A stretch of 64,000 nucleotides of DNA from Bacteroidota bacterium (lineage in GTDB: Bacteria > Bacteroidota > Bacteroidia > NS11-12g > UBA955): contig JAIYAW010000009.1 of the NCBI GenBank assembly GCA_027488835.1, forward strand, positions 186,001 to 250,000, given 5' to 3'. The notes under the pieces were generated by a model that worked only from the letters and a program-made list of their open reading frames with translations, was not told where the DNA came from and made no database searches. The translations under genes were made by a program, and so were the position numbers. Each line of letters begins with the position of its first letter. The first letter of the stretch is position 1. This document shows, piece by piece, positions 54,046-60,587 of this stretch.

Positions 54046-55887
54046 ATGAAAAGAACGATACTTTCAATTTTTGCATTTTGTGCATTAACCCTTTCTGCAC
54101 AAACTGTTTACACCTATTCCGGAATTCAATATATTGACTCTGGTAAATTCAATGGTACTGCCACTAACACCTTATCGACAGAATTATACAGTAGACCTCA
54201 ATCTATGTCTTGTGATTCTAACAATAGATTGTACATTACCGATGAACATAACATAATGCTATGTGATGGAACAACCTCTCGAAATAGAGGCGGTTTTCGT
54301 GGTGATCCAACTTCGACTTTGTCCTTAGGAAGCAACGATGGAACAGGATTGGTTTCTAGATTTTCAACTCCTGCAGGTATTGCGGTGCACCCAATGTCTA
54401 ACGATGTGTATGTTTGTGACAGAAACAATAATCTAATTAGAAAGGGTTCGAAATTTGTGAATGCGTCTAACGAATCTTCTTGGAGTACTTTCGCCGGAAA
54501 TATTTCTTTTTTAGGGGGATATGAAGACGGACCAATAGCAAATGCCCAATTTTCAACACCAGAAGATATCGAAATTAGCAAAAATGGAATATTTTATATT
54601 GCAGATTTTGATAATAATTGTATTCGTACAATTGTGAGTGGAATTGTATCAACATTAGCAGGTTCTGGTTGGGCCGGTTCTGGAGATAAAGATGATAATG
54701 ATACTTTTGCCCGATTTGATAGACCAAATGGTTTAGGATTAGAAGGCACAACTGGATTACTTGTAGCAGATAGAAATAATGGTAAAATTCGCAGAATTAA
54801 TCTTTCCACAAAAGCTGTTACTACAGTGGTTTCAAATTTGAATTTCCCCGTTGATGTGCTTTCGATTAATAACAAAATTTACATTGCTGAAGCAACATGT
54901 ATCAAAGTATTTGATGGTACCTCTGTGAAAGTATTCGCCGGAAATCCCTCACAAGCAGGTTACGTAGATGGAGATATTTCGGTTGCGTTGTTTAGAAATA
55001 TTACCCATATTACTTATCGCAAAGCTGACCAATGTATTTATGTGTGCGACAATGGAAATAACATTATCCGCAGAATACCATTGATTTTTAGTGCTACCGC
55101 TGATTTTGATGCAAATAATACAACTCCAATAGTAAATCAAACAGTAAAAATAAAATCAAATTGCTCGAATACCAACTCTTATACATGGACAATTTCTCCA
55201 AATACATATACGCTGCAAGGAAATACAAAATTAACAGATCAAGATATTTATGTTTCCTTCAATGCAACAGGTTCTTACACAGTTAATCTCTTGGCTAAAA
55301 ATCAATCAACTTCCGATACAAAAATCAAAACCAATTATATTAACGTTTCAACAAACTCTGGTGCAAAACCAGCAGTTGATTTCATAGCATCGAAAGTTAC
55401 ACCAACTGTTAATGAAATAATTACGTTATATGATTTGACAGCCAACAATGCAACATCGTATAAATGGACAATCACTCCTAAAGAATACAAATTTGAAAAT
55501 GGTAGCGTAGACACAGATAGAAATCCAACAATTTCATTTAATCTGTTAAATCAGAAGTATACGGTTAAATTAGACGCACTAAATGCAAATGGAAGTGGAA
55601 CATTAACTAAAGCTGATTACATTATAACTGCCTTAAGTGGAAATAACAATATTCAAAAATATAAAGTTCTATTGTATCCAAATCCAGCCAAATCGCAATT
55701 GTTTTTGAAAGGATTGCCTATGAATTCAAAAGTTTTATTTACTGATGTTACAGGTAAATCTGTTTCAATGTCGATATTGGAGGATGCATCAATTGACGTT
55801 TCGAATTTATCAAACGGAATTTATTTTGTTACAGCAATTGCTCATGGCGAATCTGTGCAAATTGGAAAAGTAATTATCGAAAATTGA
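54046..55887 (+). CDS. Secreted NHL-repeat/PKD protein with T9SS type A sorting domain
   Basis: Signal peptide MKRTILSIFAFCALTLSAQ. About 45-345 is an NHL beta-propeller (repeats such as STPAGIAVHPMSNDVYVCDR, FSTPEDIEISKNGIFYIADF, FDRPNGLGLEGTTGLLVADR). Two PKD-like domains follow at about 350-430 and 440-525. The C-terminal ~75 residues are a type A sorting domain (LYPNPAKSQLFLKG, ending GKVIIEN). Probably T9SS-exported and surface-attached. Its TGA overlaps the next gene's TTG by 4 bp, and a strong hairpin follows within 20 nt. Confidence 0.88.
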   Translation: MKRTILSIFAFCALTLSAQTVYTYSGIQYIDSGKFNGTATNTLSTELYSRPQSMSCDSNNRLYITDEHNIMLCDGTTSRNRGGFRGDPTSTLSLGSNDGTGLVSRFSTPAGIAVHPMSNDVYVCDRNNNLIRKGSKFVNASNESSWSTFAGNISFLGGYEDGPIANAQFSTPEDIEISKNGIFYIADFDNNCIRTIVSGIVSTLAGSGWAGSGDKDDNDTFARFDRPNGLGLEGTTGLLVADRNNGKIRRINLSTKAVTTVVSNLNFPVDVLSINNKIYIAEATCIKVFDGTSVKVFAGNPSQAGYVDGDISVALFRNITHITYRKADQCIYVCDNGNNIIRRIPLIFSATADFDANNTTPIVNQTVKIKSNCSNTNSYTWTISPNTYTLQGNTKLTDQDIYVSFNATGSYTVNLLAKNQSTSDTKIKTNYINVSTNSGAKPAVDFIASKVTPTVNEIITLYDLTANNATSYKWTITPKEYKFENGSVDTDRNPTISFNLLNQKYTVKLDALNANGSGTLTKADYIITALSGNNNIQKYKVLLYPNPAKSQLFLKGLPMNSKVLFTDVTGKSVSMSILEDASIDVSNLSNGIYFVTAIAHGESVQIGKVIIEN

Positions 55888-57761
55888 AATATATTTTAAA
55901 TAGCGCAAACGAAAAAAAACCGTTCATCAACGGTTTTTTTTCGTTTATAATTATCGCATTTATTCATGTATATCTATTTCAATTACTTTCTCGTTTCATT
56001 ATTTACGCAATTAATTTTTCCTCCCATTTTTCCTTTTTCAATTTTTTGCAATGTGCATTTTATGGAATCAAGCAAGATATTTCCATAACTGCTTATTTTA
56101 TTGCTTTACTAATATTAGTTCTCATATGTTTCAAGGTATTTAAAATCGCTAAAATCAATCGCTTTGCGGTCATTTATTTTACAGTCGTGTCATTCGTAAT
56201 TTCGTTGATCACGATCATTGATTCACAGCTACTTAAGTATTGGAATAACAAAGCTGATTTTCAATTTTTTTTCTATTTGAAATATCCAAAAGAAGCTTTA
56301 AATACAGTGCCGTTATTTTGGTGGATTTTGACTTTTTGTATCTTAATCATTATAATATTAGCCAGTTATAAATGGTTTCAATTTGTTTTTAGAAATATTT
56401 CTAACGATTCTATTGCAATATCTTGGAAAACTATTTCAGCCTCAATTGTTGTGCTTGCAGTTTTAATAAGGGGTGGATTTGATATTATGCCCGTGCTGAT
56501 TTCTGATGCCTCTTTTTCTGATGATCGCAATAAAAATTTATTGGCTACAAATTCAGTTTGGAACTTCTTTTACCAAATGGGCGAGTCATCCGGATTAAAA
56601 GAAGTTGACGATTTTAGAAATGGCAAATATTTCAATCCAAATTTAGATAAATTATATTTTACCGATAGTTCCTATATTGTTCCTATATTTTATTGGGATA
56701 AAACTCCAAATGTTGTACTTATTGTCTTGGAAGGATACACAGCTGAACTTTCGAACTTTTTTGGAGGTCACGATGGTGATTGTATGCCATTTATAGATAG
56801 CTTAGCCCGGAATGGATATGCCTGCAAACAAATGTTTGCAACCGGAGACAGAACAGATAAGGGATTGCTAAGTATTTTGAGTGGTTGGCCCGGTCAAACT
56901 TGGCAGAACATGATCAATCATCCCTCAAAATTCAATTCAATTCCAGCTTTGGCAAGTGAATTCGCGAAATTACGCGGCTATAAAACTTCATTTTTTTACG
57001 GGGGGAATTTGGACTTTGCAAATATGAAGGTTTACCTCAAAAGCAATGGGTTTGAAAACTTAGAAGGCGAGGAGTCAATTTCGAAATTTACAGAAAAACC
57101 AAAAGGGAAATGGGGATATTCAGATGAAATTCTATTTGATTATTTAGCATACCATGAATCTAACACTGATTCGTGGCACAATTGGTTTTCTACAGTGCTT
57201 ACTTTAAGTTCTCATGAGCCTTATGATATTGCTCCTGATAATTTGAAAACAGTGAAAGAAAAAATGCAATATTGTGTAAAATATACTGACAATCAATTGC
57301 GAAAATATTTTAGTAGAATTCAAAAAACACCGAATTTCGATAATACAATTTTCATCATCACTGCAGATCACGGAAAGCAACTCAATACGTCCGAAACGAT
57401 GTATGGCTCCCGAAATTTTTTCCATATTCCATTTTTGATTTATGGAAAGCCTCTACCAAAAGAATTTAAAGGTTTTGTAAATAACAATGTTGTTTCTCAA
57501 TCTGATATTTATCAGACGTTACATGAATTGATTTTGCAAAGTCCAGACAAAAATGCAATTTTTAGCAGATGTTTATTTCGCAACAATCACCCTGGAAATG
57601 CAATCTCAAATTTAAATGGCGCTTCGGTTTATATTGACTCTTTGACATATGATTTTCTACCTACTGACAAAATGTCAATGCTGAAAAAAGACAAATTGAG
57701 TTTGCTCGACAGTTTGATATTGCACGTTCAAACAAAAATTATTCGAAATTTTTTTAAATAA
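55884..57761 (+). CDS. LTA synthase-family membrane sulfatase-fold protein
   Basis: Five hydrophobic helices in the first ~210 residues, then an extracytoplasmic alkaline phosphatase/sulfatase domain: PNVVLIVLEGYTAELSNFFGG, the nucleophile region GDRTDKGLLSILSGWP (Thr), LSSHEPYDI and ITADHGKQ. Homologues transfer phosphoglycerol or phosphoethanolamine groups; the acceptor here is unknown. The start is TTG at 55884 (TTGA overlap); no in-frame ATG occurs before the conserved first helix. Codons 8-21 form a perfect terminator-like hairpin (55907-55946). Confidence 0.87.
   Translation: MKYILNSANEKKPFINGFFSFIIIAFIHVYLFQLLSRFIIYAINFSSHFSFFNFLQCAFYGIKQDISITAYFIALLILVLICFKVFKIAKINRFAVIYFTVVSFVISLITIIDSQLLKYWNNKADFQFFFYLKYPKEALNTVPLFWWILTFCILIIIILASYKWFQFVFRNISNDSIAISWKTISASIVVLAVLIRGGFDIMPVLISDASFSDDRNKNLLATNSVWNFFYQMGESSGLKEVDDFRNGKYFNPNLDKLYFTDSSYIVPIFYWDKTPNVVLIVLEGYTAELSNFFGGHDGDCMPFIDSLARNGYACKQMFATGDRTDKGLLSILSGWPGQTWQNMINHPSKFNSIPALASEFAKLRGYKTSFFYGGNLDFANMKVYLKSNGFENLEGEESISKFTEKPKGKWGYSDEILFDYLAYHESNTDSWHNWFSTVLTLSSHEPYDIAPDNLKTVKEKMQYCVKYTDNQLRKYFSRIQKTPNFDNTIFIITADHGKQLNTSETMYGSRNFFHIPFLIYGKPLPKEFKGFVNNNVVSQSDIYQTLHELILQSPDKNAIFSRCLFRNNHPGNAISNLNGASVYIDSLTYDFLPTDKMSMLKKDKLSLLDSLILHVQTKIIRNFFK
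55907..55946 (+). terminator. Perfect 18 bp terminator-like hairpin inside the LTA-synthase-like coding start
   Basis: Left arm 55907-55924, loop CATC, right arm 55929-55946: 18 perfectly paired bases. The core CCGTT/AACGG is flanked by A8 and T8, the usual form of an intrinsic terminator. It begins 20 nt after the stop of the T9SS protein gene and is entirely inside the next coding region. Confidence 0.85.
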
Positions 57762-57835: not shown

Positions 57836-58057
57836 ATGAATATCAAGGCTAACAAGAAATTTATTGTAATCATTGCGCTAATTTTGGTGAATGCTGTGGG
57901 ATTTACGTCAGCTCGTTATTATTTTTCAATGCATATAGACTCAAATCAGGTGTCACCAAATTTTCTTCAACGATTTAATCAAGCCAGTCCTGCTATGATT
58001 AATCCATCTAAATTCTTAGAATTTGGCTTGGATTTACTCAAAAATATTGGCAAATAA
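57836..58057 (+). CDS. Small membrane-anchored protein upstream of LytS/LytTR
   Basis: 73 aa: a positive N-terminus (MNIKANKKF), one hydrophobic helix (about 9-26, FIVIIALILVNAVGF) and a polar C-terminal part with FLQRFNQASPAMINPSKFLEF. No family recognised. Its stop is 11 nt before the TTG of the kinase gene, so cotranscription is likely. An ATG with A-rich upstream sequence supports it as a real gene. A short dyad (GTTAGA-TACG-TCTAAC, 57779-57794) lies upstream. Confidence 0.6.
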   Translation: MNIKANKKFIVIIALILVNAVGFTSARYYFSMHIDSNQVSPNFLQRFNQASPAMINPSKFLEFGLDLLKNIGK

Positions 58058-58068
58058 TTCCTTGAAAA

Positions 58069-59115
58069 TTGCAAAATCTTTTTGCTTCATATTTACATAG
58101 AACTGAAAAATTTATTTTAAAATATAAGCTGGATCACGTTTCCTTTTGGTTGACGTATTCCATTATATATACTTTTTCATTTCGATCCTCAAACGATTGG
58201 TTTAACGGATTGGTAGATTCGGTAGTTATTTTGTCGTTTCATGCATTGGTTTGTTATTTCAATATATACTTTTTGGTTCCTAAGTATTTATTTAAACAAA
58301 GTTATTTATCATATATTTTCACCTTACTGCTTTCCATTGTAAGTGTTTGCTTTCCATTGTCAATAGTAGCACATTTGGTAATTAACAACAAAGATTTATT
58401 AAGCTTAGTTTGGTCAAGTGCATTTTTATTTTTCATTTCATTAAGCGTATTGTTTTCGGTTATTTTAACCATGGTATTTAAATTTGTTAAGCAATGGTAT
58501 CGAGATCAAGTTAGCAAAAAAGAATTGCAACAAATTCAGCTGCAAACGGAGTTGAAATTTTTAAAAGCCCAAATCAATCCTCATTTTTTATTTAATTCCT
58601 TGAATAATTTGTATGCGTTAACATTAAAGAAATCAGATTTGGCGCCTCGTGTTGTTTTGATGTTGTCTGATATTTTGCGTTATGTGCTATATGAAAGTAA
58701 TCAAGGTCAGGTTTCAATTTTGAAGGAAATACAACACATAAAAGATTATATTGAAATAGAGAGACTTCGGTTGGGGAATTTGGTTAGGGTGGAAATTGAA
58801 ATTTCAGATCAAATTTCAGATCAAAGCATAGAACCAATGTTGCTGCTTACCTTGGTTGAAAATGCCTTCAAACATAGTGAAAGTGTTTTGGCTCAAAATA
58901 GATATATCAAAATTATATTTGAGAATTTGGATAACGGTTTTCGTTTTCTTATCGAAAATTCTTTTAATCCATCGAAGAAAAGTATTGAAATGGGCGGAAT
59001 TGGATTGCAAAATATAAAAAAGAGATTAACTTTAACATATCCGGGTAAACATGAACTCATTTCTTCAATAAATGATGATATGTATCAAGTAGACCTCATT
59101 ATTTACTTTAACTGA
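58069..59115 (+). CDS. LytS-family sensor histidine kinase
   Basis: Four N-terminal TM helices (about 25-140), then the His_kinase domain: NPHFLFNSLNNLYALTL with the phospho-His near residue 172, and an ATPase part ending GIGLQNIKKRLTL. No separate ligand domain. The start is TTG: the frame upstream is closed by TGA 4 nt before it and no early ATG exists. It is followed 7 nt later by the LytTR regulator. Confidence 0.93.
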   Translation: MQNLFASYLHRTEKFILKYKLDHVSFWLTYSIIYTFSFRSSNDWFNGLVDSVVILSFHALVCYFNIYFLVPKYLFKQSYLSYIFTLLLSIVSVCFPLSIVAHLVINNKDLLSLVWSSAFLFFISLSVLFSVILTMVFKFVKQWYRDQVSKKELQQIQLQTELKFLKAQINPHFLFNSLNNLYALTLKKSDLAPRVVLMLSDILRYVLYESNQGQVSILKEIQHIKDYIEIERLRLGNLVRVEIEISDQISDQSIEPMLLLTLVENAFKHSESVLAQNRYIKIIFENLDNGFRFLIENSFNPSKKSIEMGGIGLQNIKKRLTLTYPGKHELISSINDDMYQVDLIIYFN

Positions 59116-59122
59116 TAAAATC

Positions 59123-59845
59123 ATGAACAAAATTAAAACAGTATTAATTGACGACGAGCCCCTGGCATTAGATGTTTTAGAAGGATTGCTTCTTAGTTTT
59201 CCTCAAATAGAAATTGTAGGAAAATTTAACAACCTCCAAGAAGCAAAATTGCAAATTGAGGCTTTGAGTCCAGCCGTTGTATTTACAGATATTCAAATGC
59301 CTGGACAAAATGGATTGGATTTCATTCAAGAACAATATCCCGCTCCATATGCAGTAATATTTTCCACAGCTCATCCTAATTTTGCGGCCGATGCATTTGA
59401 ATATGAAGCATTGGATTACTTATTGAAGCCCATTTCCCCAGAGAGAATGTCCAAAGCTATCAAAAGATTAGAGGAGTACTTAGAATACAGAAGCAATACA
59501 ACAGAAATTGCATCTACACAGGAAGATTATGTCTATGTGAAGGTCGATGGAGAGCATCAAAAAATTCAATATAAAGATATTTATTACATTGAAGCTTTTG
59601 CTGATTATGTCAAAATTTGGACATCTCCGGTAAAACGGATAGTAACACTTCAAACCATGAGAAATATGGAATCTGGTTTGCCCTCAAAATCATTCATTCG
59701 GATACATAGAAGTTATATTATTGCCATTGATAAGATTAAATCTATTCAAAATAATGCAATTTTCTTGGAAGGCGATATTGAAGTTCCCATTGGTAAAAAT
59801 TACAAAGACGCAATTACTAAGTTATTATCGAAAAATAGATTTTAA
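59123..59845 (+). CDS. LytTR-family response regulator
   Basis: Receiver domain 1-118 (phospho-Asp in VVFTDIQMPGQNG, Lys in YLLKPIS) and a LytTR DNA-binding domain (about 135-240: YVYVKVDGEHQKI, YIEAFADYVKIW, SFIRIHRSYII). Partner of the LytS-type kinase just upstream. Possible targets include genes nearby; none can be shown. Confidence 0.94.
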   Translation: MNKIKTVLIDDEPLALDVLEGLLLSFPQIEIVGKFNNLQEAKLQIEALSPAVVFTDIQMPGQNGLDFIQEQYPAPYAVIFSTAHPNFAADAFEYEALDYLLKPISPERMSKAIKRLEEYLEYRSNTTEIASTQEDYVYVKVDGEHQKIQYKDIYYIEAFADYVKIWTSPVKRIVTLQTMRNMESGLPSKSFIRIHRSYIIAIDKIKSIQNNAIFLEGDIEVPIGKNYKDAITKLLSKNRF

Positions 59846-60149: not shown

Positions 60150-60467
60150 GTGAGTAGGTTAGATTACAACAAGATCAAGAATCTCTCTGCCTCTAAAAGA
60201 ATTCCTATTAAGGAACTTGCGAGGTTGTGTGATTTGAGTGAACAAGGTTTTCATTACATGTTGAAAAAACAAACAATGAGAGTGGATACCTTGGAGAAAA
60301 TTTGTGCGAATTTGGGTGTATCCCCATTTGATCTTTTTGAAAATGAAAATGGAGACATCAATCCATCTTCAATTGTAATTCCAGCAAGATCATCAGATAA
60401 CAATGATCAATTGATGCAGAAGCTGGACATCATTATTGAATTATTGAGGTTGCAAAAAATTATGTAA
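60150..60467 (+). CDS. XRE-family helix-turn-helix regulator
   Basis: 105 aa. HTH_3 domain at about 5-60 (NLSASKRIPIKELARLCDLS, then TLEKICANLGVSPFDLFE). The C-terminal ~25 residues (NDQLMQKLDIIIELLRLQ) form a probable coiled-coil oligomer helix. GTG start preceded by AAAAGAAAAGAAG. It stands alone after about 300 AT-rich bases; targets unknown. Confidence 0.85.
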   Translation: MSRLDYNKIKNLSASKRIPIKELARLCDLSEQGFHYMLKKQTMRVDTLEKICANLGVSPFDLFENENGDINPSSIVIPARSSDNNDQLMQKLDIIIELLRLQKIM

Positions 60468-60545: not shown

Positions 60546-60587
60546 TAATGAAAGTTATTTTTAGTAAAATAAAAATAACTTTCATTA
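60546..60587. terminator. AT-rich 18 bp perfect hairpin between convergent genes
   Basis: Left arm 60546-60563 (TAATGAAAGTTATTTTTA), loop GTAAAA, right arm 60570-60587: 18 perfect pairs. It lies between the XRE stop (60467) and the HMG-CoA-lyase-like stop (60636). Position suggests a bidirectional terminator, although G+C is low; an operator is possible. Confidence 0.5.

Follow-up and report, generated by a model that had tools for sequence, protein, structure and literature searches.

Partial terminators within operons, coupling of consecutive genes through overlapping stop and start codons, and terminators lying over a leader open reading frame (ORF) are all already known. Intra-operon terminators that lower the expression of the downstream gene have been established elsewhere (PMC10450193), stop/start-overlap coupling has been reviewed (PMC12548453), and the terminator of pyrBI lies inside its leader ORF, as far as its citation in PMC4824070 conveys. 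In Escherichia coli, a ribosome at an upstream stop codon suppresses a terminator less than ~27 nt away, in a sequence-dependent manner (Li et al. 2015, PMC4824070). In the same study, one construct carried a terminator within its second ORF (ORF2), 30 bp past the start codon, and translating ORF2 lowered termination by only ~10%, because a newly initiating ribosome cannot catch RNA polymerase within ~100 nt (PMC4824070). The Bacteroidota are absent from the list of phyla classed as showing runaway transcription (PMC13323073), which leaves room for an effect of translation on termination in this phylum. Here, we describe a perfect 18-bp hairpin of the intrinsic-terminator type in a 64-kb stretch of a Bacteroidota genome of 2.49 Mb (G000:C5:186001-250000; hereafter, the window). 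Terminators are usually sought between genes, but this one lies within the coding start of a gene for a lipoteichoic acid (LTA)-synthase-like enzyme, directly behind the gene for a surface protein sorted by the type IX secretion system (T9SS), and it has evidently been fixed there by selection in nine genera.

The evidence for this comes from relatives. The enzyme was searched in 97 of them and the surface protein in the same set, and the junctions were read in ~70 genomes. A terminator-type hairpin stands just 3' of the T9SS stop codon in 40 out of 41 junctions between a T9SS gene and the enzyme gene, all from one family of freshwater-type bacteria (genera g1, g2, g4, g5, g7, g8, g10, g12 and g14). 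One junction (L028) has a one-base slip in one reading but not in another. The stem is built from different sequences, namely CCGTT/AACGG, CCCGTT/AACGGG, CCCATT/AATGGG and CCCGG/TCGGG, and further GTGGCGGGAATT/AAATTCCGCCAC, GGAACCCC/GGGGTTCT and AAGGCATCAAAC/GTTTGGTGCCTT. The hairpin is kept even though the encoded residues are unrelated (KWQVFHENTATFLF, RTPWSEFFF, KGIKLWFGAFF, GRYTLYVCLFF), and the U-tract is present in all intact relatives. Across 25 distinct stems, 12 out of 12 pair positions have changed on both sides in a compensatory way and 98.3% of the cells are paired, a percentage that is partly given by construction, as the sequences were anchored on each predicted hairpin. The covariation score amounts to 0.761, compared to 0.214 for shuffled sequences (0/500) and at most 0.264 when the alignment is slid. 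The two arms of the same locus pair at 97.5%, versus 57% after swapping arms between genera.

Three tests are independent of this anchoring: the fixed position of the hairpin, the controls from other gene contexts described below, and a synonymous-codon null. The latter gave p<0.03 in 18 out of 19 representatives with differing residues. For the window sequence alone, an 18-bp stem arose in 23 of 5000 draws (p ~0.002-0.005). This value is modest because the residues KKPFINGFF already favour a stem; being weaker than expected, it is not relied upon. Only one other perfect hairpin in the window matches it in length. A dispersed repeat is ruled out, as the core pattern occurs only once in the genome; the window has no Rfam match at gathering score, and no match was found in the plasmid collection. 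Taken together, the comparative sequence evidence is decisive against chance, and selection has evidently preserved the hairpin at the beginning of the enzyme's coding region.

The reading frame is conserved together with the hairpin. From the T9SS stop codon to the end of the hairpin, no stop codon interrupts the enzyme frame in 39 of the 41 junctions, and in the other two the frame stays open when read from an ATG that precedes the hairpin, while the two alternative frames are open over the same stretch in only 9 of 82 cases. Stop and start codons overlap in 28 junctions (Table 1); the position of the start is conserved, while the start codon itself drifts. Because the terminator sits in a coding start, one 40-nt stretch must meet amino-acid, reading-frame and RNA-folding demands at the same time.

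The presence of the hairpin depends on which genes are paired. An A-run/GC-stem/T-run hairpin is absent in 30 enzyme homologues that follow a different gene (g3, g9, g11, g13 and family f2), ATGA overlaps included, where the best structures are imperfect and long-looped and reach at most -13.5 kcal/mol (L068). Likewise, it is absent in seven tightly spaced T9SS-helicase junctions of g13. Where the T9SS orthologue stands alone (other g13 genomes, g11 and family f2; L118-L121, L128-L131), its terminator is of the ordinary intergenic kind. It is thus with the pairing of T9SS gene and enzyme gene that the nested hairpin goes, and the conservation of this pairing suggests that the T9SS protein and the LTA-synthase-like enzyme are functionally linked. 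In a search of 108 genomes of the order, this family alone yielded close orthologues of the T9SS gene (E <= 1e-90). As a separate observation, the helicase-like gene of g13 (QSKALAVLKSGKNVFLTGSAGAGKTYVLNQ) directly follows the orthologue with NHL repeats and PKD domains in L114-L117, L122, L126 and L127, without a terminator, and thus constitutes a different conserved partner.

In the window itself, what the first-pass annotation had described of the anatomy holds to the nucleotide: the T9SS gene and the next gene overlap as TTGA, and a perfect hairpin occupies codons 8-21 of the latter (Table 1).

Table 1. Coordinates of the gene pair and of the nested hairpin in the window.
Feature	Position	Strand	Further data
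Upstream gene: 613 aa, secreted; NHL repeats, PKD domains, and a type A sorting domain for T9SS at the C-terminus	54046..55887	+	PF01436, PF18962, TIGR04183
Downstream gene: membrane protein of 625 aa; domain of the sulfatase/alkaline-phosphatase superfamily (LTA-synthase / phosphoglycerol-transferase-like)	55884..57761	+	PF00884; closest solved chain 3lxq
TTGA, overlap of stop and start codons: enzyme TTG on TGA of the surface protein (55885-55887)	55884..55887	+	XTGA in 25/41 junctions (mostly TTGA; also ATGA, GTGA), TAATG in 3
Perfect 18-bp hairpin AAACGAAAAAAAACCGTT-CATC-AACGGTTTTTTTTCGTTT, intrinsic-terminator type	55907..55946	+	loop 4 nt; enzyme codons 8-21; symmetric A8/T8
GC core CCGTT-CATC-AACGG	55919..55932	+	3 G-C pairs, -3.3 kcal/mol
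T8 (U) tract, part of the 3' arm	55933..55940	+	codes Phe-Phe ahead of the first transmembrane helix

Both proteins can be placed by their domains. The upstream protein scores 42.1 bits for PF18962 (cut-off 27) and 33.1 for TIGR04183 (cut-off 23), which identifies it as T9SS type A cargo. The enzyme scores 106.9 bits for PF00884 over residues 275-549, behind a hydrophobic N-terminus, as in the domain layout of LtaS. Its best curated models are phosphoglycerol transferases, all far under their cut-offs (NCBIfam phosphoglycerol transferase I: 48.9 bits versus a cut-off of 572), and no LtaS model is among them. For this reason, the enzyme is named LTA-synthase-like rather than LtaS. The stop and start codons overlap with the start in frame with the enzyme gene, an arrangement typical of translational coupling. 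As had been noted from the window alone, the enzyme frame is intact and offers no nearby later start; it runs to 625 codons, with codon 55 as the first in-frame ATG, GTG or TTG past the hairpin. No in-frame start was found 5' of the TTG either, so full-length enzyme mRNA must contain the hairpin, barring non-standard starts. A start after the hairpin is ruled out in the window for ATG, GTG and TTG, non-standard ATN starts aside; some g5 relatives carry an ATG or TTG right after the stem, and a later start is possible there. The two genes are co-oriented and overlapping. No sigma-70-type promoter-like match occurs on the + strand from 54257 to 56119, nor was a Bacteroidota-type promoter found near the hairpin on this strand, a pattern that is at chance level and without power (six found, seven expected).

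How strongly the hairpin terminates is a different matter. It combines a stable stem-loop (RNA minimum free energy of -20.9 kcal/mol) with an immediate U-tract, as expected of an intrinsic terminator, and starts 19 nt after the TGA. For comparison, all hairpins with at least 10 perfect pairs and A/T tracts were collected from 630 kb of contig C5. This yielded 50 hairpins, 41 of which are intergenic, and the one at the enzyme start is the only one to fall inside a secure gene within 60 nt of its start. The remaining cases inside genes comprise two short ORFs round a GTGGGGC-type repeat, one over-extended start and two hairpins deeper in genes. In form (A-run, GC stem, T-run) and in spacing (19 nt versus an ordinary median of 18.5 nt after the stop), the hairpin matches the ordinary terminators of the contig. 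Its core, on the contrary, is weaker than those of 48 of the 49 others, which have a median of five G-C pairs and -10.3 kcal/mol. The long stem is mostly A-U: eight of the 18 pairs come from the A8:T8 tracts and the core holds just three G-C pairs, so the hairpin is not a particularly strong terminator. The first-pass claim that it should terminate most transcripts sits uneasily with a core among the weakest of 50; judged from its sequence, the hairpin is better called a leaky candidate than a strong terminator, and termination of most transcripts is not assured. The 19-nt spacing does not indicate a special design either, since 44 of 50 ordinary terminators in the contig likewise lie less than 27 nt from the stop and 13 of the 40 relatives measured have a distance of at least 27 nt (up to 55 nt).

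We consider it somewhat better than an even chance (a probability of roughly 0.55) that the surface-protein gene has its 3' terminator in this hairpin, which lies within the 5' coding region of the enzyme gene and has been kept by selection as a leaky intra-operon terminator. RNA polymerase would start at the promoter of the T9SS gene and transcribe the surface-protein gene. Most transcripts would be released at the U-tract in vivo, so that the surface-protein mRNA would be abundant and monocistronic, with its end at enzyme codons ~18-20, while a minority would read through into a bicistronic mRNA. On the latter, ribosomes that have completed the surface protein would re-initiate at the overlapping TTG or ATG and melt the stem as they translate the enzyme. 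The frequent use of the weak TTG start would fit a low level of re-initiation. In this way, a single promoter could set a fixed low ratio of enzyme to surface protein; we infer both this use and the amount of read-through behind it. A fixed partial terminator is also the simpler reading compared to a regulated one. If correct, it would represent a compact way for a single promoter to yield surface protein in quantity but enzyme in small amounts, an arrangement that annotation rules equating a terminator with the end of an operon would miss.

Three points weigh against this proposal. In transcripts ending at the hairpin, the enzyme frame lacks a stop codon, and a ribosome re-initiating on such a message would therefore stall, which looks costly. 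The cores of several relatives are stronger (-11 to -22 kcal/mol), and leakiness is hence not uniform. Finally, the element has degenerated in one junction despite an intact gene pair (L021, ~1487-1540, locus reverse complement): its stem has decayed to AAAAACCCTGCATCGCTTGTTTTT, with frame and start overlap intact. As a natural loss, this locus is useful to compare expression.

The first-pass annotation had interpreted the hairpin as a translation-dependent attenuator, in which a ribosome at or past the surface-protein stop codon, or one re-initiating at the TTG, blocks the hairpin so that the enzyme follows translation of the surface protein. That a terminator-type element lies over the first codons of the second gene has stood, and the arrangement is conserved; as to its operation, attenuation of this kind appears weaker than a fixed partial terminator, and we regard it as unlikely. 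The frequent stop/start overlaps and the position of the Bacteroidota outside the runaway-transcription phyla speak for it, as does the 19-nt distance, which falls below the ~27 nt within which a terminating ribosome acts in E. coli. This spacing would leave room for an effect of the terminating ribosome, and less for that of a re-initiating one. Indeed, the loss of only ~10% of termination in the E. coli construct fits poorly with a stem that is occupied by re-initiating ribosomes and thereby lets polymerase through. The spacing is moreover the same as that of ordinary terminators of the contig and extends up to 40-55 nt in relatives. Nor was the logic of an attenuator found: at 14 loci, the 5' arm paired with the 160 nt upstream no better than shuffles, which gives no antiterminator, and a leader peptide is absent, the ORF over the terminator being the enzyme itself. 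In its broadest form, the element would be dual-coding throughout the family, specifying the N-terminus of the enzyme as well as a regulated terminator whose read-through is set by translation of the preceding T9SS protein, without leader peptide or trans-acting factor; this, too, seems improbable. Either way, the junction is a naturally occurring case in which to test how ribosomes affect intrinsic termination in Bacteroidota, a question on which the literature searched gave no direct study.

Slightly less probable again is an accidental overlap, whereby the enzyme gene came to overlie a strong terminator of the surface-protein gene and its N-terminal codons are a tolerated passenger, with no ratio under selection. 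The ordinary intergenic terminator behind the lone T9SS orthologue and the typical form and spacing of the hairpin would suit such a history. However, the open frame and the start overlap have been maintained over nine genera, showing that the enzyme is used, and relief by a shift of the start or loss of the stem would be expected somewhere, while just one of the 41 junctions (L021) has lost its stem. The T9SS-helicase pairs of g13, which lack such a hairpin, argue in the same direction. It is also quite improbable that the hairpin chiefly shields the 3' end of a processed surface-protein mRNA, resulting in differential stability through decay rather than in termination: a stable stem directly 3' of the coding region could do so, but a pure stabiliser needs no T-tract, and the T-tract is kept in all intact relatives. 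That the codons for the Lys and Phe runs of KKPFINGFF merely happen to be complementary is scarcely credible, as the few synonymous draws that do yield such a stem in the window are contradicted by the hairpins over unrelated residues, the synonymous nulls in relatives and the covariation.

Several observations concern the surroundings of the gene pair. Downstream of the enzyme gene lie a LytS-type histidine kinase (58069-59115) and a LytTR-type regulator (59123-59845), and between enzyme gene and kinase a 73-aa ORF (57836-58054) with a single N-terminal hydrophobic segment and no Pfam match. The kinase and regulator are likewise found 3' of the enzyme in a genome of the same genus, G007 (L133). 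There, the T9SS and enzyme genes are each broken across several frames (G007:C4:56000-60500), which may reflect assembly indel errors or decay. The other perfect 18-bp inverted repeat of the window, TAATGAAAGTTATTTTTAGTAAAATAAAAATAACTTTCATTA, is located at 60546-60587, just 3' of a small helix-turn-helix gene (60150-60467); it is AT-rich without a GC core and is possibly an operator or a recombination site. Elsewhere among the loci, a repeated stretch with the hairpin AAAGCCCCAC...GTGGGGCTTT (L075:5191-5213, L077:5766-5788) carries short spurious ORFs sharing RFARDPQVGEL.TNCKAKL and looks like a dispersed non-coding repeat.

The literature searched, the coverage of which was partial, contained no terminator that compensatory changes preserve throughout a bacterial family in the codons for the N-terminus of a full-length enzyme, and the described systems each resemble the present one in part. 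The ioTTS of Methanococcus maripaludis (PMC10450193) are likewise situated between co-oriented genes of an operon, the downstream gene being expected at a lower level through partial read-through. The reported sites are intergenic, however, while the present one is within the downstream coding region, is read as amino acids and is of the bacterial hairpin type. The pyrBI, trp and his attenuators also have a terminator that overlaps an ORF near a stop codon, where ribosomes could act, but here the ORF is the full-length enzyme, and neither an antiterminator nor regulatory codons were found. Coupling by stop/start overlap (PMC12548453) involves the same TTGA, ATGA and TAATG overlaps of consecutive genes; what differs here is the intrinsic-terminator hairpin within 15-55 nt of the stop codon, inside the coupled gene. 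The W48 tricistronic construct (Li et al. 2015, PMC4824070) shares the order of gene, start codon and terminator ~30 nt into the second ORF. It is synthetic, however, made for E. coli with lambda tR2, whereas the arrangement described here is natural and conserved across a bacterial family.

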